From Leucobacter chromiireducens subsp. solipictus (lineage in GTDB: Bacteria; Actinomycetota; Actinomycetes; Actinomycetales; Microbacteriaceae), in contig NZ_QYAC01000002.1 in the NCBI RefSeq assembly GCF_016758195.1, positions 62,001-126,000 of the forward strand: a DNA stretch of 64,000 bases. The letters are read 5' to 3'. Under the pieces are notes generated by a model. The model was not told where the DNA came from, did no database searches, and saw nothing but the letters and a program-made list of their open reading frames with translations. Made by a program: the position numbers and the translations under genes. Within the stretch, counting starts at the first letter, position 1. Every line of letters starts with the position of its first letter. Below are positions 287 through 51,273 of the stretch, piece by piece.

Positions 287-3061
287 TTAGGCGTCGCCGC
301 CGGCGTTGCCGGTGGTGCCCGCGGTCAGATCGTCCAGGCGGTACTTCCGCGCCGCCTCGGCGGGCAGCGCCGGATCGATCACGCCGTCGAGCGCGAGCGC
401 CTCCAGGGTGCGCACCACGATCGACTCGATGTCCACGTGGAAGAAGCGCCGCGCCGCCGCACGGGTATCCGAGAAGCCGAACCCGTCGGTGCCGAGCGAG
501 AGGAAACGCTGCGGGCTGTACGGGGCGATCTGATCCTGCACCTGGCGCATGAAGTCGCTCACCGCGATCACCGGCCCGCCGCTGCTCTCGCGCAGGCGCT
601 TCGTGACGTACGGCTCGCGCGCGGGCTCGCCCCGGAGCACGCCCTCGTCCGCGTCCATCGCTTCGCGCCGCAGCTCGTTCCAGCTCGTCACCGACCACAC
701 GTCCGCGGCAACGTTCCAGTCCTCCGCGAGCAGCCGCTGCGCGGCGAGCGCCCACGGCACGGCGACCCCCGAGGCGAGGATCTGTGCCGGGAATGACCCA
801 CCGCTCGCCTGCGAGACCCGGTGCATGCCCGCGAGAATGCCCTCGGCGTCCACGTCGGCGGGCTCCGCCGGCTGGGCGATCGGCTCGTTGTAGACCGTGA
901 GGTAGTACATCACGTTCGGGTCCGGGTGCGCGCCGCCGTACATGCGCTCGAAGCCGGCGGCCACGATGTGCGCGAGCTCGTAGCCGTACGCCGGATCGTA
1001 GCTCACGACCGCGGGGTTCGTGGAGGCGAGCAGCTGCGAGTGTCCGTCGCCGTGCTGCAGCCCTTCGCCCTGGAGCGTGGTCCGTCCAGCGGTGGCACCG
1101 ATCACGAAGCCGCGGGCCATCTGATCGCCCGCCGCCCAGAACGCGTCGCCCGTGCGCTGGAAGCCGAACATCGAGTAGAACACGTACACCGGGATCAGGG
1201 GTTCGCCGTGGGTGGCGTAGGAGGTGCCCGCGGCGGTGAACGCGGCGACCGCTCCCGCTTCGTTGATGCCGACGTGCAGGATCTGTCCTGACGTTGACTC
1301 CTTATACGCGAGCAGCAGTTCGCGATCCACCGACATGTAGGTGTGCCCCTGCGGGTTGTAGATCTTCGCGGTCGGGAAGTAGGCGTCCATCCCGAAGGTC
1401 CGGGCCTCGTCCGGGATGATGGGCACTATGCGGTGGCCCATCTCCTTGTCGCGGAGGATCTCGCGCAGGATCCGGGCGAACGCCATGGTCGTCGCCGCCT
1501 GCTGCTGCCCGGAACCCTTCTTCGCGAGCTCGTAGGCCTTCGCGCCCGGCACGGGGATCTGCGTGTACTTCGACCGGCGCTCGGGAACGGCACCGCCGAG
1601 CGCGCGGCGGCGCTCCAACATGTACTCCAGTTCCGGCGAGCCCGGTTCGGGGCGGTAGTAGGGCGGCGCGTACACGTCCTCCGAGAGCGCGGAGTCCGGG
1701 ATCGGGATCCGCAGCAGGTCGCGGAAGTCCATCAGATCCTTCGCGGTGAGCTTCTTCATCTGGTGCGAGGCCATCCGGCCTTCGAAGCTCGGGCCCAGCT
1801 TGTAGCCCTTCACGGTCTTTACGAGGATCACCGTGGGCTGACCCGTGTGCTCGCTCGCGGCCTTGAACGCCGAGTAGAGCTTGCGGTAGTCGTGACCGCC
1901 GCGCTTCAGGTTCCAGATCTCGTCGTCGCTGTGCCCCTCGACGAGCTTCGCGGTGCGCGGGTCGCGGCCAAAGAAGTGGTCGCGCACGAAGCCGCCGGAC
2001 TCCGCCTTGTAGGTCTGGAAGTCCCCGTCGGGGGTGGCGTTCATGAGGTCAACGAGCGCGCGGTCGTGATCCCGCGCGAGCAGATCGTCCCACTCGCGGC
2101 CCCACAGCACCTTGATGACGTTCCAGCCGGCACCCCGGAAGAAGGCTTCGAGTTCCTGCACAATCTTGCCGTTGCCGCGGACCGGGCCGTCGAGGCGCTG
2201 CAGATTGCAGTTGATCACGAAGTTCAGGTTGTCGAGGCCGTCGTTCGCGGCGAGCTGGAGCAGGCCGCGCGACTCCGGCTCGTCCATCTCGCCGTCGCCG
2301 AGGAAGGCCCACACCTGCTGCTCGGAGGTGTCCTTCAGGCCGCGCGCGGCCAGGTAGCGGTTCGACTGGGCCTGGTAGATCGCGTTCATGGGGCCGATGC
2401 CCATGGAGACGGTCGGGTACTCCCAGTAGTCGGGGAGGAGCCGCGGGTGCGGGTAGCTGGGCAGGCCGCCGCCCGGGCGCGAGCGCTCCTGCCGGAAGGC
2501 GTCCAGCTGCGCCTCGCTGAGCCGGCCCTCGACGAACGACCGGGCGTACATGCCGGGGGAGGCGTGCCCCTGGAAGAAGACCTGATCGCCACCCGAGGGG
2601 TGGTCCTTGCCGCGGAAGAAGTGGTTGAAGCCGGTCTCGTAGATCGTGGCGGCCCCGGCGTAGGTGGCGATGTGCCCGCCCACGCCGATTTCGGGGCGCT
2701 GCGCGCGGTGCACCATGACGGCCGCGTTCCACCGGATCCACGCCCGGTAGCGCCGCTCGGCGGCCTCGTCGCCGGGATAGGCGGCGTCCGCGCTCGCGGG
2801 AATCGTATTCACGTAGTCCGTGGTGATGGCCCCGGGCGCCGCGGTTGCGGTTGATCCGGCGCGAGCGCCCAGCACCTCGAGGATGTGGCCTGCGCGCGCG
2901 GCGCCGCCGGACTGCAGGAGGCCCTCGAAGGACTCGAGCCACTCCGCGGTCTCTTCGGGGTCGCTGTCCCCGCGTGGGGTGCCGCCCGAGTTCGCGGGGA
3001 GAAGGCTCCGCTGCAGCTTCTCGCGGAATCGCTGTGGGGGGAAGTCGCCTGGGGCGTTCAC
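287..3061 (-). CDS. aceE: Pyruvate dehydrogenase E1 component, homodimeric type
   Basis: Thiamine-diphosphate enzyme that decarboxylates pyruvate and acetylates the lipoyl groups of the E2 subunit, feeding acetyl-CoA to central metabolism. The 924-residue product matches the length of the single-chain (alpha2) E1 family. The TPP-binding motif is visible: GDG at residues 255-257 and INCNLQ at about 283-288. A GTG start is preceded by a purine-rich stretch (AGAAAGAGAGC). The gene follows the urate permease on the same strand, 70 bp downstream, with a strong hairpin between them. Its own promoter is not obvious in that gap, so it may rely on read-through or on a promoter inside the permease gene. 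The E2 and E3 genes are not in the window. Confidence 0.95.
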
Positions 3062-3081
3062 GTCTGCTCTCTTTCTGCAAG

Positions 3082-3117
3082 GGAGCGGTGCAGGGCCGTG
3101 GGGCCCTGCACCGCTCC
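3082..3117 (-). terminator. GC-rich hairpin between permease and aceE
   Basis: Arms of 16 bp (GGAGCGGTGCAGGGCC at 3082-3097 and its perfect complement at 3102-3117) enclose a 4-nt loop. It lies directly after the permease stop codon and before the aceE ribosome binding site. No T-run follows, as is common for actinobacterial hairpin terminators. It should at least attenuate transcription from the urate genes into aceE. Confidence 0.75.
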
Positions 3118-3131
3118 GAAGGGGGGTGCGA

Positions 3132-4709
3132 CTACGGTTTCGTGCTCACATTGCCCGTGTCGGCGCGAACCTTGTCGACGGTGGGGATGTGGAGGGAGGA
3201 GGTGATGTCGCCGGTCTCGTCGACGCGCTGCACGAGAATCTCCTCGCCGTCCTTCGAGTAGAGCTTGCCGCCGATGAACGTGTCGCCGTCCTCGAGAGCG
3301 CGGATCTCGTCCTCGCGGACCATGCGGGGCGGGCTTGCGGCGAACGCATTCTTGTTGCGGGCGCGTTTGCCGATCTTCAGCTCGTTGAACAGGATGTTCA
3401 GGACGATGGCCATGAGCGCCGCCGAGGAAATCCCCGAGTGGAAGATCACCTCGAACCACGAGGGGAACTGGCTGTAAATGTCCGGCTTCACGATCGGGAG
3501 CATCCCGAACGCCAGGCTCGTCGCCACGATGATGAGGTTCATGTTGTCCTTGTAGGACACCTTGGACAGGGTGCGGATGCCCGAGGCGGCCACCGAGCCG
3601 AACAGCACGATCCCGGCCCCGCCGAGCACCTGCATCGGGATGGCCCCGGCCACACGCCCCATGATGGGCAGCACGCCGAGGATCAGCAGGATGAAGCCAC
3701 CGGCGGTGACCACGAAGCGGCTGCGCACGCCGGTGATGGCGACGAGTCCCACGTTCTGCGCGAACGCCGACTGCGTAAAGGAGTTGAAGACCGGCGAGAC
3801 CATGCTCGAGATCATGTCGGCGCGCAGGCCGTTGGCGATGCGCTTGGAGTCCACCTTCGAGCCGGTGATCTCGCCGACCGCGAGGATATCGGCCGCGGTC
3901 TCCGTGAGGATCACGAGCACCACGATGAACATCGAGATGGTGGAGGCGACGTGGAACTCGGGCCAGCCGAACGCGAACGGGGTGGGCAGGGCGAAGATAT
4001 CGCCCTTCAGCACGCCGGAGAAGTCGGCGATGCCCATCGGGATCGCGACGATCGTGCCGATGACGAGGCCGACGAGCACGGCCAGGCGCGACAGCATGCC
4101 GCTCCCGAGCTTCGAGCAGACGATCACGATGAGGAGGGTGAGGCCCGCGAGGCCGATCCCCTTGACCGAACCGTAGTCGTCGGCCGACGCGTTGCCGCCC
4201 ATAATCCAGTTGCCGGCCACCGGCATGAGGGTGAGGCCGATCGCGGTGATCACGATGCCGGTCACCACGGGCGGGAAGAACCGGATGATCTGCGCGAAGA
4301 ACGGGGTGATGATGAACCCGAACACCGAGGCCAACAGCACGGCGCCGAAGATCTCGTTGATCGTGCCGCCGCCCGCGATGATCGCGGTCATCGTCGAGAC
4401 GGAGGCGAATGAGACACCCTGCACCAGCGGAAGCTTCGACCCGAAGAACGGAATCCCCACGGTCTGCAAGATCGTGGCGAGGCCGCCGATAAACAGACAG
4501 CACGCGATCAGCATGCCGATCTGGTCGGGGGTGGCCCCCACGGCGCTGCCCACGATCAGCGGGGGCGCAATGATCCCGCCATACATGGTGAGCACGTGCT
4601 GCAGCCCGTACATGATCGTACGGGACAGCGGCAGGCGCTCGTTCTCCGGCTCCCCTTCGACATCAATGGTTCCCGGGAATCCGCGCTTGGTATTCGTACT
4701 GCGACTCAC
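3132..4709 (-). CDS. NCS2-family uracil/xanthine/urate permease
   Basis: Inner-membrane proton symporter for oxidised purines, most likely urate, given its position directly after uricase. The chosen GTG start (4709) follows a strong site GGAGGT at 7-nt spacing and gives 525 residues; an upstream extension of 22 residues is possible but lacks a ribosome binding site. About 12-14 hydrophobic segments are visible. The NCS2 signature [10 protein letters not shown] is at residues 318-327. Family members of this subgroup include bacterial urate permeases such as PucJ/PucK and YgfU, so urate is preferred over uracil; substrate choice is inferred from context. Confidence 0.9.
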
Positions 4710-4794: not shown

Positions 4795-5700
4795 CTAGAC
4801 GAAGGCGGGGACGCCCTTCCAGATCTTGTCCGTATCGCCGAGGCTCTCGCGGCGCAGCGTGCCCTCGATCTGGCCGTAGGGGCTGTGCGCCGCCCAGAAC
4901 ACCTCGTTGTCGTTTTCCATGCCGTAGGGCGTGAAGTCGACCACAAAGTGGTGCAGGTTCGGCATCGAGAACTTGATCTCGTCGATCTCGGGGTGGGCTT
5001 CGAGTACGGCCTTCCCCATGAGGTACTGCGTTTCCTGCAGCGCGCGCGAGTAGTGGTTGGTGAAGACCTCGAGCAGGATCTTCTTCACCGAGGCGTAGCT
5101 GGCGTTGAAGTCGACGTCGGTCGTGTTGTACAGCCAGCGGCCGGTCACGCTCGTCGCGAGGATCCGGTCCGTGGTCTCCTGCAGCGTCGTGTACTGGTCC
5201 ACGGGGAAGCCGACGAAGCCGGACTGCGTGGTCTTGAGGACCGAGAGGTCTTCGAGGCCGGCGATGACGTACTGCTGGTCACCGTCGATCTTCACGACGG
5301 CGGTGCGGGTCTCGCCCCCGGAGCCGCCGCGGTAGAACGAGTGGTCGTGGCCCTCGCCGTTCACGGGGATCCGGTCCCACTCGACCTGGCGCGCGGCCCA
5401 GCGGCCGCCGGTGACCCACTCGAAATCGTCGACGTAGTGCTGGCCGAGCCGCAGCAAGAAGTCTTCGGGCGAGCCGACGCCGTCCTTGGCGAAGGCGAAC
5501 ACGGTGTTCTTCTGGGTGTCGGTCGGGACGACGTGCTCGTTGTTGCCGTCGTAGTACGCAGAGGCGAAGTCGCCGTGCAGCTGCGAGATGACGGTCAGAT
5601 CCTCGATCGTGTGCCGATCGCCGTTCTTGGTGACCTTGACCAGGTGGTTCTCGGCCTTCCCGAACTGGTTATCACCGAGCACGATGTTGGTGTTGGACAT
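4795..5700 (-). CDS. uox: Uricase (urate oxidase)
   Basis: Cofactor-free cytosolic oxidase that converts urate, O2 and water to 5-hydroxyisourate and H2O2. The 301-residue product has the usual family length. The conserved block VPTDTQKNTVFAFAK near residue 60 carries the Thr-Lys context of the uricase signature, and the N-terminal Lys region (QFGKAENHLVKV) is present. The second half shows the expected repeat of the T-fold. It follows HIU hydrolase by 6 bp and the operon order is uraD-hiuH-uricase-permease. Its H2O2 by-product probably explains the peroxiredoxin upstream. Confidence 0.97.
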   Translation of the reverse strand: MSNTNIVLGDNQFGKAENHLVKVTKNGDRHTIEDLTVISQLHGDFASAYYDGNNEHVVPTDTQKNTVFAFAKDGVGSPEDFLLRLGQHYVDDFEWVTGGRWAARQVEWDRIPVNGEGHDHSFYRGGSGGETRTAVVKIDGDQQYVIAGLEDLSVLKTTQSGFVGFPVDQYTTLQETTDRILATSVTGRWLYNTTDVDFNASYASVKKILLEVFTNHYSRALQETQYLMGKAVLEAHPEIDEIKFSMPNLHHFVVDFTPYGMENDNEVFWAAHSPYGQIEGTLRRESLGDTDKIWKGVPAFV

Positions 5701-36187: not shown

Positions 36188-36249
36188 CCCGTCCGCCTTT
36201 TTCTGCGTACCGGGTGCGCGCAGGGTCGCGGAGTGCCGCGATCGCGCGT

Positions 36250-36376
36250 TCCTCTCATCCGGACTAGCGCGGCCTGGGCCGCGCATCACCGTCGGTCCCG
36301 GAATTTCACCGGATCGGCCCTGCGGAAGCAGGGTTCGCGGACTGTCACCGCCGGTTCGGATTCTCACCGACCCCGG
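36250..36376 (-). promoter_or_regulatory. FMN riboswitch (RFN element)
   Basis: On the minus strand the conserved RFN blocks occur in order: GGGGTCGGTGAGAATCC, GGCGGTGACAGTCCGCGA, CCGGTGAAATTCCGGGACC, GACGGTGATG and AGTCCGGATGAGAGGA. It lies 63 nt before the ribD start. TAGCAT (minus strand, 36388-36393) is a likely -10 element about 12 nt upstream. FMN binding should repress the rib operon, probably by blocking translation initiation. Confidence 0.97.
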
Positions 36377-36413
36377 AACACGGGACCATGCTACCGCGCC
36401 GGGCCGTGCGGGG

Positions 36414-49279: not shown

Positions 49280-49891
49280 CTAGGCGTCCGCAGCGAGGCT
49301 GGGTGCCGCGTCGGTGAAGGCGAGCTGGGTGAACCCAGCGAAGAACACGTCAAATGCGTCCATGGCCTCCGGTCCGTCTTCGGAGACCATGTGGCCGTAC
49401 TGAATTCCGACCAAGAAATCTGCCATCACCCGGGCGAGCACTCGCGACCGTTCCGCGGCCACGCCCTGATTCATGAGCCAGGTGCGAAACTCGGACTTCC
49501 ACGCGAGGTACATGGTGCTGACGTGTGGATCGACATCGGGGTCGACCCCCTCGAGCGCCGCGCCCTCGAACTGAAACCGGATCGCGGCCGCTCCGTTCGC
49601 GGCGACGGCCGACAGGCACACCGCCCGGAGCGTTTCGGTCATCTCGGAACGCGACAGGTGCGCGAATTCCACCCCGCCGATCAGCCGGGTTTTGGTGCGG
49701 ACGGCCTGCTGGAGCACCGCATCGATGAGACCCTGCCGCGTGCCGAAGTGATACACCAGGGTGTACGGCGTGACCTCCAGGGCCGTGGCGACGGTGCGGA
49801 ACGTGAGCTTGGCGAGGGGCAACCGCTCCGTCAGCGCGAGGATCTGATCGATGAGCTCTCCGCGTCGGGCGGGGTTCTGTGGGCGTCCCAC
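49280..49891 (-). CDS. TetR-family transcriptional regulator
   Basis: 203 residues. N-terminal HTH about 10-55 (IDQILALTERLPLAKLTFRT, VATALEVTPYTLVYHFGTRQ, GLIDAVLQQAV), then a helical ligand domain ending in a TetR_C-like region (SEFRTWLMNQG, ADFLVGIQYG). GTG start with GGAAGGAA upstream. No divergent partner gene is close (mgtC lies 0.66 kb away beyond its leader), so it may act at a distant target. Confidence 0.92.
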   Translation of the reverse strand: MGRPQNPARRGELIDQILALTERLPLAKLTFRTVATALEVTPYTLVYHFGTRQGLIDAVLQQAVRTKTRLIGGVEFAHLSRSEMTETLRAVCLSAVAANGAAAIRFQFEGAALEGVDPDVDPHVSTMYLAWKSEFRTWLMNQGVAAERSRVLARVMADFLVGIQYGHMVSEDGPEAMDAFDVFFAGFTQLAFTDAAPSLAADA

Positions 49892-50058
49892 GATTCCTTC
49901 CTTCGTGCGATAGCTGGATAGTGTTCCGACTGTATCGGGTTTTCTGCGCGTGACTTCCCCCGGAGCTCACGGGCCGTCTGGGTGAAAGGTGTGCGTAGCG
50001 TTTCTGCTCGCAGTGTGACGCGCCTGCCCCAGGGGCGCCGATCCGACGGGTGGCGCGC

Positions 50059-50087
50059 TTGCGCCGCCGAGCGAACGGGCCTAGAGT
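50059..50087 (+). promoter_or_regulatory. Promoter of the mgtC leader RNA
   Basis: TTGCGC (50059-50064) and TAGAGT (50082-50087) are spaced by 17 bp. Transcription would begin near 50094, at the 5' edge of the M-box. The 170 bp between this promoter and the tetR start hold only the tetR upstream region. Confidence 0.6.
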
Positions 50088-50089
50088 TC

Positions 50090-50266
50090 CCTGCGTAGCG
50101 CTTCGTTCGGCGAGGCTCCTGCGCGAACACAGTCCGCTCATCCCACGACGTCGAGAGACGCCCAGGCTGAGGACAGGTCTTCCCGGATTAAGGGTCGGCC
50201 CCAAGCGGATTCCCTCGAGGATACGTCGCACAGTGCCAAAGCTCTGACGTGGAGGTGTGACGCAGG
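50090..50266 (+). promoter_or_regulatory. M-box (ykoK) magnesium riboswitch
   Basis: Conserved M-box blocks appear in order: CTTCGTTCGGCGAGGCTCC, GACGTCGAGAGACGCC, GGATTAAGGGTCGGCC and CAGTGCCAAAGCTCT. The closing stem can form between CCTGCGT (50090-50096) and ACGCAGG (50260-50266). A competing hairpin GGAACG/CGTTCC (50265-50279) overlaps its 3' strand and may be part of the switch. In the known family, Mg2+ binding turns off downstream Mg2+ transport or homeostasis genes; mgtC is downstream here. Confidence 0.85.
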
Positions 50267-50329
50267 AACGCCCCGTTCCGGCCTGCTCGTGGTGGTGAGC
50301 GCTGCCGAAGCTGAGGAGGTGCACCGTGA

Positions 50330-50545
50330 GTGACGGCCAAAGTCGATCTGAGCGCCCGCGCGGTGCCGCCGCCTCCTCCATTCCGCAGTCACTGCGTTGA
50401 CCCTTTCGGTCTGGGCGGCCCCACCTCGCGGGAGCGCGAGGGTTCCCTCGCTGCACGCGATGAATCAACGCCCCACGCCATCGCGACTGGACCGGGCCGG
50501 GCGACACGCCCCACGCGGCCGCGGATTCCGCTGCCCTGCCCCTGA
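50330..50545 (+). CDS. Proline-rich leader ORF upstream of mgtC
   Basis: A 71-codon ORF from GTG 50330, with GGAGG (50315-50319) upstream. It contains a run of five prolines (RAVPPPPPF, residues 12-16) and ends in RPTRPRIPLPCP. The stop codon is 5 nt before the mgtC ATG, which lacks its own clear ribosome binding site, so mgtC may depend on coupling. A competing start GTG 50326 in another frame gives a 24-residue peptide ending at 50400 and is better spaced (6 nt). Either could be a regulatory leader like Salmonella mgtP/mgtL; protein function beyond that is not implied. Confidence 0.45.
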   Translation: MTAKVDLSARAVPPPPPFRSHCVDPFGLGGPTSREREGSLAARDESTPHAIATGPGRATRPTRPRIPLPCP

Positions 50546-50550
50546 ATGAA

Positions 50551-51273
50551 ATGAGACTCCCCATGGAGACACTCGACCTTGCTCTGCGTATTTTCTCCGG
50601 CCTCGCGCTCGGCGCCGCGATCGGCTTCGAGCGGCAAATCCGATCTCGCACCGCGGGCCTGCGCACCAACGCGCTCGTGAGCCTCGGGGCCGCGCTCTTC
50701 GTGATTATGGGGGCGTTCAGTTTCGAGGGTCCGGGCGCGGACCCCACCCGCGTGGCCGCCCAGGTGGTGTCCGGGATCGGCTTCCTCGGCGCTGGGGTCA
50801 TTATGCGTCAGGGGGTATCGGTGTCCGGCCTGAACACCGCCGCAACGCTCTGGGCCTCGGCTGCGGTCGGTGCGCTGGCGGGCGGCGGCATGATCCCGGT
50901 GGCGGTGGGCGGCACCGCCGCCGTAGTGCTGTCGAACCTGCTGTTGCGTCCCCTGGGGCGACTCCTCGACCGGCGTGGTTCCCGGGCTACCCGCGAGCCG
51001 GCGATGACGGAGTACGTGTTTGTGGTGCGCTCTCTCGCCGAGGCCGAGGTGACGGTTCGCTCCCGCGTTGTCGCCGCGCTGCAGCGCCCCGAGTTCACGG
51101 TGCACTCACTGGAGGCGAACGACCTCGCGACGAGCGAGGTGGAGCTGACCGCGCGCCTCACCGCGTTGGAACGCAGCGATGCGGCCTTTGAGGCGGCGAT
51201 CGCGGATGTGGTCCCGGTGCCCGAGGTGACCTCGGTGCGGTGGCGTGCGCGGGAGTTCGAGGGGGAGGACTAG
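50551..51273 (+). CDS. mgtC: MgtC/SapB family membrane protein
   Basis: 240 residues. The N-terminal half has about five helices with family motifs LGAAIGFERQIRSRTAGLRT, LVSLGAALFV, VVSGIGFLGAGVIMR and GLNTAATLWASAAVG; the C-terminal half is a soluble ACT-like domain (about 150-235). MgtC proteins support growth in low Mg2+ and modulate ATP synthase or ion homeostasis. The start may be 50551 or 50563. Regulation by the M-box leader fits its role. Converges closely with the cupin-AraC gene. Confidence 0.92.
   Translation: MRLPMETLDLALRIFSGLALGAAIGFERQIRSRTAGLRTNALVSLGAALFVIMGAFSFEGPGADPTRVAAQVVSGIGFLGAGVIMRQGVSVSGLNTAATLWASAAVGALAGGGMIPVAVGGTAAVVLSNLLLRPLGRLLDRRGSRATREPAMTEYVFVVRSLAEAEVTVRSRVVAALQRPEFTVHSLEANDLATSEVELTARLTALERSDAAFEAAIADVVPVPEVTSVRWRAREFEGED

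Follow-up and report, generated by a model that had tools for sequence, protein, structure and literature searches.

A conserved short leader ORF between an M-box riboswitch and mgtC in Leucobacter, with similar leader ORFs before Mg2+ importer genes in other actinobacteria

The M-box (Mg2+) riboswitch that precedes mgtC in Leucobacter chromiireducens subsp. solipictus probably gates a conserved 24-codon leader ORF (referred to here as the uORF) and, through this uORF, mgtC itself. The leader lies in a 64,000-nucleotide stretch of the genome, referred to here as the window, and was compared with M-box leaders from other Leucobacter genomes and from the family, order and class. Judged by its conservation across these leaders, the uORF is the meaningful reading frame, and a longer proline-rich frame that overlaps it is not conserved. 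The features of the leader are collected in Table 1.

The aptamer belongs to RF00380, since it is full length and scores above the curated gathering threshold, and it is highly conserved in nine aligned Leucobacter leaders (alignment A1, which covers all 11 leaders that this class of M-box has in Leucobacter except L004 and L005). The linker behind it may form two small hairpins, one of which (GCTCG..GAGC) is also present in the Leucobacter consensus fold, and we regard both as candidates for a function. The Shine-Dalgarno sequence GAGGAGG that follows is invariant across the same nine leaders, and the uORF starts 64 nt past the end of the aptamer. No Shine-Dalgarno-led start was listed in the window's leader besides two overlapping GTGs, that of the uORF and, 4 nt further on, that of the proline-rich frame. 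The distance from GAGGAGG is 6 nt to the first and 10 nt to the second, a spacing that cannot alone choose between the two starts; conservation does. A second riboswitch aptamer, of the FMN class, is found elsewhere in the window (36243-36384, minus strand, 81 bits).

Table 1. Features of the mgtC leader and of mgtC, in window coordinates.
Feature	Position	Strand	Evidence or remark
M-box (Mg2+) riboswitch aptamer, RF00380	50095-50261	+	cmscan 134 bits against a gathering score of 44; model positions 1-169
Aptamer-to-uORF linker, with potential small hairpins GGAAC..GTTCC and GCTCG..GAGC	50262-50312	+	Alignment A1
Shine-Dalgarno sequence GAGGAGG of the 24-codon uORF	50313-50319	+	Anti-Shine-Dalgarno pairing -12.8 kcal/mol
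24-codon leader ORF (uORF), MSDGQSRSERPRGAAASSIPQSLR, conserved	50326-50400	+	Found at 60 of 86 M-box loci; AGT at codon 6; substitutions
71-codon proline-rich frame with PPPPP and terminal IPLPCP	50330-50545	+	Judged not to be a gene
CGCCTCCTC, able to pair with the leader Shine-Dalgarno sequence GAGGAGGTG (50313-50321)	50370-50378	+	9 bases, one G-U
Junction of the mgtA loss, 2.77 kb missing relative to G044	50479-50494	+	blastn blocks
mgtC, MgtC family, start METLDLA, 236 codons plus stop	50563-51273	+	Pfam; conservation of the start

A preliminary description of this DNA had drawn attention to the proline-rich frame. Both frames that it named exist after the M-box, the longer one with PPPPP (50366-50380) and a terminal IPLPCP (50525-50542), the shorter one starting 4 nt earlier. 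Its proposals that the longer frame acts as a ribosome-stalling sensor, and that the leader offers a choice between the two GTGs, did not survive comparison. Among the 60 uORF-bearing leaders analyzed, the GTG of the proline frame was found in two (L001, which is the window's leader, and L011) and was absent from the other 58, and PPPPP was found in L001 only. A comparison of leaders across related genomes thus found the frame unconserved, an outcome that the description had itself named as counting against its proposal. The substitutions in the nine aligned Leucobacter leaders point the same way: over codons 2-14 the mean BLOSUM excess was +0.47 for the 24-codon frame and -0.18 for the proline frame, and the third frame scored +0.24 but contains stop codons. 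Over codons 2-24 the frame scores were closer (0.28, 0.12 and 0.08), conservation fading past about codon 13. One of two mycobacterial sets (38 sequences) showed no coding signal after codon 7, where the uORF frame scored -0.08, below the 0.26 and 0.26 of the other frames.

That the 71-codon frame stalls ribosomes at its prolines and thereby couples translation to mgtC is highly improbable on these results, although several properties made it attractive. It has a Shine-Dalgarno sequence upstream of its GTG, and a run of five prolines was uncommon in dinucleotide shuffles of the leader (12 of 2000; 7 of 2000 when a frame of at least 71 codons was also required). The frame is also open for 71-72 codons in three congeners (L008-L010), two of them with PPP, all three without its start codon. 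A frame of at least 71 codons arose in 1213 of the 2000 shuffles, so that its length is ordinary, and the six-frame translation of the window contains five runs of five prolines. Runs of three or more prolines were commoner in the proline frame (13 of 60 leaders) than in the other forward frames (3 of 60 and 5 of 60), which we read as C-rich RNA at that spot.

Comparison with the closest relative, G044, accounts for how the frame came to be long. The order in G044 is M-box, uORF, mgtA, mgtC, where mgtA encodes a P-type ATPase of 899 residues and mgtC is 96% identical to that of the window. In a blastn alignment, query positions 1058-1480 stop at G044 position 2204 and query positions 1495-3500 resume at G044 position 4976; the window therefore aligns with G044 up to ∼50479 and again from ∼50494, and the sequence absent between these points includes mgtA. 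The gene occupies the same place in G019 and G016, and mgtC also lies ∼3 kb from the M-box in G030, G038 and G032. The rest of the window's own genome yielded no mgtA ortholog, the best match having 32% identity. After the loss, the uORF and mgtC are 162 nt apart. Because the proline frame spans the junction, its end, including IPLPCP, is former mgtA-mgtC intergenic sequence, and it was the joining of the flanks by the loss of mgtA that gave the frame its length. On conservation and the deletion junction together, we ruled out the proline frame as a functional ORF. Three other Leucobacter loci, L005 (G029:C15), L012 (G007:C3) and L006 (G021:C1), have the M-box ∼60, 190 and 530 nt from mgtC, respectively, with no mgtA there, and mgtA may have been lost from this place in Leucobacter once or several times. 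A long GC-rich inverted repeat stands between mgtA and mgtC in L089 and L095-L097 and is eroded in the window; the inverted repeat upstream of mgtC in G044 reads GCGGTGGGCCGGGGC..GCCCCGGCCCACCGC.

The start of mgtC is very probably the ATG at 50563 and not the start at 50551, since METLDLA with a preceding Shine-Dalgarno sequence (GAGG or AAAAGAGG) is common to L089, L090, L092 and L093. Matches to PF02308 and PF21770 were obtained for the mgtC product on 50551-51270. Given this start, the proline frame ends 17 nt upstream of mgtC, rather than 5 nt as had been described, which further argues against coupling between the two. The site in front of the window's mgtC reads GAGA, where two of those relatives have GAGG, and its predicted anti-Shine-Dalgarno pairing is -2.7 kcal/mol, compared with +0.4 kcal/mol for 50551 and the far stronger pairing of the leader ORF. 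Contrary to the earlier statement that it has no clear ribosome binding site, mgtC does have one, albeit weak.

The uORF was defined on a broader sample. M-box matches were obtained in 13 of 54 genomes of the genus, 19 of 398 of the family, 15 of 396 of the order and 26 of 394 of the class, in sets that overlap. From 87 M-box loci (L001-L087) we dropped one that scored below the gathering score (L039) and used 86; a further 17 class matches, for which there was no locus, were not used. By choosing by hand among Shine-Dalgarno-led starts, we assigned a short ORF to 60 of the 86 M-boxes and none to the other 26, counting L085, which has a Shine-Dalgarno sequence without a start, among the latter; the set of 60 includes cases with a weak motif (e.g., L004, L032, L035-L038, L046, L056 and L078-L083). 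The uORF starts 50-105 nt past the aptamer in 57 of the 60 and farther downstream in three. The region around the start is partly conserved, with a GGAGG core, a start codon and, within positions 5-7 of 38 of the 60 uORFs, a serine followed by proline or arginine. Residue 7 is proline in 24 and arginine in 19. AGT is used at codon 6 by 40 uORFs of the 60, which makes up 40 of the 46 serine codons at this position, whereas from codon 10 onwards it accounts for only 12 of 158 serine codons; 14 of the 24 genera have one or more loci with AGT at codon 6. The strict core M-[SND]-x-[GDS]-[HDP]-S-[PR] was matched by 24 of the 60 and excludes the window's uORF, which has glutamine at position 5. Lengths range from 13 codons upwards. 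For peptides this short, similarity cannot prove homology, and our claim is limited to shared position, Shine-Dalgarno sequence, core residues and the AGT codon.

Searches with the uORF pattern, which by design demand the motif, suggest a wider distribution. At least 119 loci in named genomes matched the strict pattern, and among the 119 matches listed, 103 had an M-box aptamer with the uORF starting 60-116 nt past it. The loci with an M-box include Leucobacter, Leifsonia, Frankia, Rhodococcus and Nocardia, so the start motif extends beyond mycobacteria. A looser pattern gave 24 matches in 15 of the 394 class genomes, and the reversed pattern gave none. When 296 genomes of the phylum were searched with a sequence-only model, seven matches had E <1e-4, all from the window's genome and two genomes of genus g190 that carry M-boxes; with 20 candidates scored per genome, absence from this search is weak evidence. 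The weaker matches, 14 in number (E 0.002-0.01), coincided with gene starts of another kind, with frames embedded in other sequence, or with sites lacking a readable ORF, apart from L267, which reads MSSGHSSR and is a possible candidate. In the literature searched, which was largely outside subscription journals, we found no report of the uORF beyond mycobacteria, nor before CorA or MgtA genes in actinobacteria. Leucobacter also has a second class of M-box, represented by L002 (G000:C10:94667-94832) and L013-L021, which stands directly before an ORF and has no uORF; the L002 ORF (MPAAIHEPILFWQ...) begins 48 nt after the aptamer, and its 109-residue frame had no Pfam match.

We considered whether the block from the Shine-Dalgarno sequence to AGTC is an RNA motif, serving as a pairing partner or a protein site, that is merely readable as an ORF. 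The constancy of AGTC, at 90% or more in 35 leaders chosen by hand from the 60, and the preference for AGT over other serine codons are both consistent with such a motif. We nevertheless consider it unlikely, since the start codon is retained in differing spellings (ATG in 40, GTG in 16 and TTG in 4 of the 60 uORFs), since the changes within Leucobacter include TCT/TCA at codon 8, CCG/CCC at codon 11 and CGC/AGA (also CAC) at codon 12, and since the mycobacterial uORF2 is reported to be expressed (PMC12810186). A further idea is that the uORF encodes a functional small protein used together with Mg2+ importers rather than a cis-regulator. A similar N-terminus does precede different importers, and the authors of the M. 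tuberculosis study hypothesised a role for the Rv1805A peptide (PMC12810186). We think this idea quite improbable, because only the first ∼8-13 residues are conserved while lengths and C-termini vary, a pattern not expected of a folded partner, and because the M-box mgtC locus L005 has no such ORF.

How the M-box might act through the uORF is suggested by the M. tuberculosis pe20 / rv1535 M-box with uORF2 (Rv1805A), described by D'Halluin et al. (2026; PMC12810186). According to that paper, uORF2 is the main regulated ORF of the pe20 leader and has a conserved proline 7, a translational platform with Rho-dependent termination is supported by reporter and Rho-depletion experiments, and the uORF2/Rv1805A peptide is specific for mycobacteria. 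In the window, the aptamer is followed by a strong Shine-Dalgarno sequence and the uORF, a layout that recurs in many actinobacteria, and relatives have the order M-box, uORF, mgtA, mgtC, from which mgtA is missing here. By analogy with pe20, binding of Mg2+ would cause the platform to shut the uORF start, the leader would be left untranslated and C-rich, and Rho would halt transcription. At low Mg2+ the uORF would be translated and transcription would reach mgtC, which would be started from its own weak site. Less surely, the uORF peptide or its codons may add a second, ribosome-based response. The uORF starts at +59 to +65 after the aptamer in 9 of 10 congeners (+114 in L004), and in L005, which lacks the uORF, mgtC itself starts at +64. 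This suggests that any start at about that distance comes under the control of the riboswitch.

Regulatory signals in the leader were consistent with this proposal to different degrees. No intrinsic terminator was found in the leader, the sole site being at 49925-49939, and no sigma-70-like promoter was found in 49850-50700. Beyond the uORF start C outnumbered G at 58 of 60 loci, whereas before the aptamer it did so at 29 of 59. The absence of a terminator and the C bias would fit a pe20-like mechanism in the window; the bias does not single out the uORF, since it also occurs at 24 of 26 M-box loci without one, and we rejected it as a mark of the uORF. The consensus fold of the Leucobacter leaders contained no covarying switch helix (covariation term close to zero, +0.32), and the aptamer is nearly invariant in this set. 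When 24 loci were folded individually, the Shine-Dalgarno sequence was mostly paired, with partners that differ. One possible partner in the window, CGCCTCCTC, is read as prolines in the 71-codon frame and underlies PPPPP. Judged against 100 shuffles per locus, pairing of the leader's own Shine-Dalgarno sequence with downstream sequence was stronger than expected (p≤0.05) at 14 of the 60 loci, among which relatives are not independent; L001 is one of them (p = 0.04). For the linker this was so at 0 of 60. The signal for an anti-Shine-Dalgarno element inside the uORF is thus modest, and our proposed mechanism does not depend on it.

The likeness to pe20 includes the M-box, a strong Shine-Dalgarno sequence, a short ORF with a conserved N-terminus (24 codons in the window, 24-26 in many of the mycobacterial loci examined), mgtC in the operon and the lack of an intrinsic terminator. 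Within genus g190, which we take as Mycobacterium, L084 reproduces the pe20 layout of M-box, uORF (MSPGDSPYPRSMTISLRSNPGTLSAV) and PE gene (PF00934). The differences are that the Leucobacter uORF has arginine (CGA) in place of proline at position 7, sharing the serine 6 (AGT), that there are no pe-ppe genes, that the uORF starts 64 nt past the aptamer compared with 84-94 nt in the 14 uORF-bearing g190 loci, and that ORFs sharing the start motif are also found outside mycobacteria and in leaders that lack an M-box. On these features of sequence and position, we assign the window's uORF to a class related to Rv1805A and not to Rv1805A. The B. subtilis ykoK M-box, described as a transcriptional off-switch (PMC12810186), has a like aptamer (RF00380); the window differs in having no intrinsic terminator and in having a short ORF between aptamer and gene. 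Salmonella mgtP, in the mgtCBR leader, is likewise short and precedes mgtC in a leader regulated by Mg2+; it is described as having three consecutive conserved prolines and an attenuator (PMC3641672). In contrast, the conserved ORF of the window has no proline run, no terminator hairpin was found, and a run of prolines in a leader ORF is not conserved among the 60 leaders.

The uORF start motif is not confined to M-box leaders. Sixteen of the 119 listed pattern loci had no M-box, and 12 remained when four that lie within ∼110 nt of a stretch edge (L119, L130, L190 and L191) were removed. No Rfam family reached threshold at these 12, and a permissive scan of seven of them and of L249 gave no M-box. 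Scanning the downstream proteins of eight of the 12 and of L249 (L121, of the L196 type, L148, L162 and L175 were left out) identified an importer family in 8 of 9: CorA in three (L196, L147 and L232), a P-type cation ATPase in three (L128, L166 and L249), MgtE in one (L170) and Nramp in one (L214); the protein at L202 had no family match. Two of the M-box-free importer loci are from Olsenella and an uncultured Atopobiaceae (Coriobacteriia). Such cases are rare in random samples: among the 24 class matches, L249 had no aptamer and L253 had a remnant. At L253 (G1111:C90) and L162, neither of which has a complete M-box, the motif precedes an ORF whose product by eye resembles a TrkA-type nucleotide-binding protein, and a 44-nt stretch in L253 that is still aptamer-like suggests a decayed M-box. 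We conclude from these comparisons that predicted ORFs with the same start motif accompany importer genes with or without an M-box.

The presence of these ORFs before importers without a detectable M-box raises the question of whether the uORF is itself a sensor of Mg2+ acting on top of the M-box, its early acidic and proline residues causing ribosomes to drop off at low Mg2+ by intrinsic ribosome destabilisation, as in MgtL, and thereby altering RNA folding or the access of Rho. In reported work on E. coli/Salmonella MgtL (EPDP) and Salmonella MgtQ (Asp2/Glu5), both of them short ORFs that precede genes for Mg2+ transporters, acidic and proline residues close to the N-terminus are described as destabilising ribosomes, with Rho involved for MgtL (PMC11282234, PMC8092293). 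Of 54 distinct uORF peptides, 40 carry one or more acidic residues within positions 2-6, compared with 12 within positions 9-13, and in 25 an acidic residue is adjacent to a proline or one residue away from it. These early acidic residues with nearby prolines make a ribosome-based sensor possible. In the actinobacterial uORFs, however, the most constant feature is not an acidic residue but serine 6 (AGT) with proline or arginine as residue 7, positions 2-6 are free of acidic residues in 14 of the 54 peptides, and an M-box stands upstream at most loci; the comparison with MgtL and MgtQ is one of layout and residues. The constancy of AGT points to the codon or the RNA as much as to the peptide, and codon, peptide and RNA readings are inseparable by sequence alone. 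We therefore regard a sensing role for the uORF as conceivable but doubtful.

Gating of the uORF by the M-box remains our preferred reading for the window. More broadly, and only tentatively, we propose that the actinobacterial Mg2+ leader peptide may be a module of its own, marked by a serine AGT codon 6 and proline or arginine, which precedes genes of the MgtA, MgtC, MgtE, CorA and Nramp types, in most cases downstream of an M-box but also on its own, and which would sense Mg2+ through the translating ribosome. M-box leaders that carry the module would then hold two Mg2+ sensors of different kinds in series. The suggestion in the preliminary description that two Mg2+ devices are stacked in this leader thus persists in altered form, with the proline frame no longer the second sensor.

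These results show that the loss of a gene beside a riboswitch can create a leader ORF that looks attractive and is nevertheless spurious. In the leaders of corA and mgtA-like genes that lack an M-box, the role of the uORF, which is also at issue for Rv1805A, could be separated from that of the riboswitch. A leader ORF that had been described as specific for mycobacteria would, by its position and start motif, extend to other actinobacterial families.
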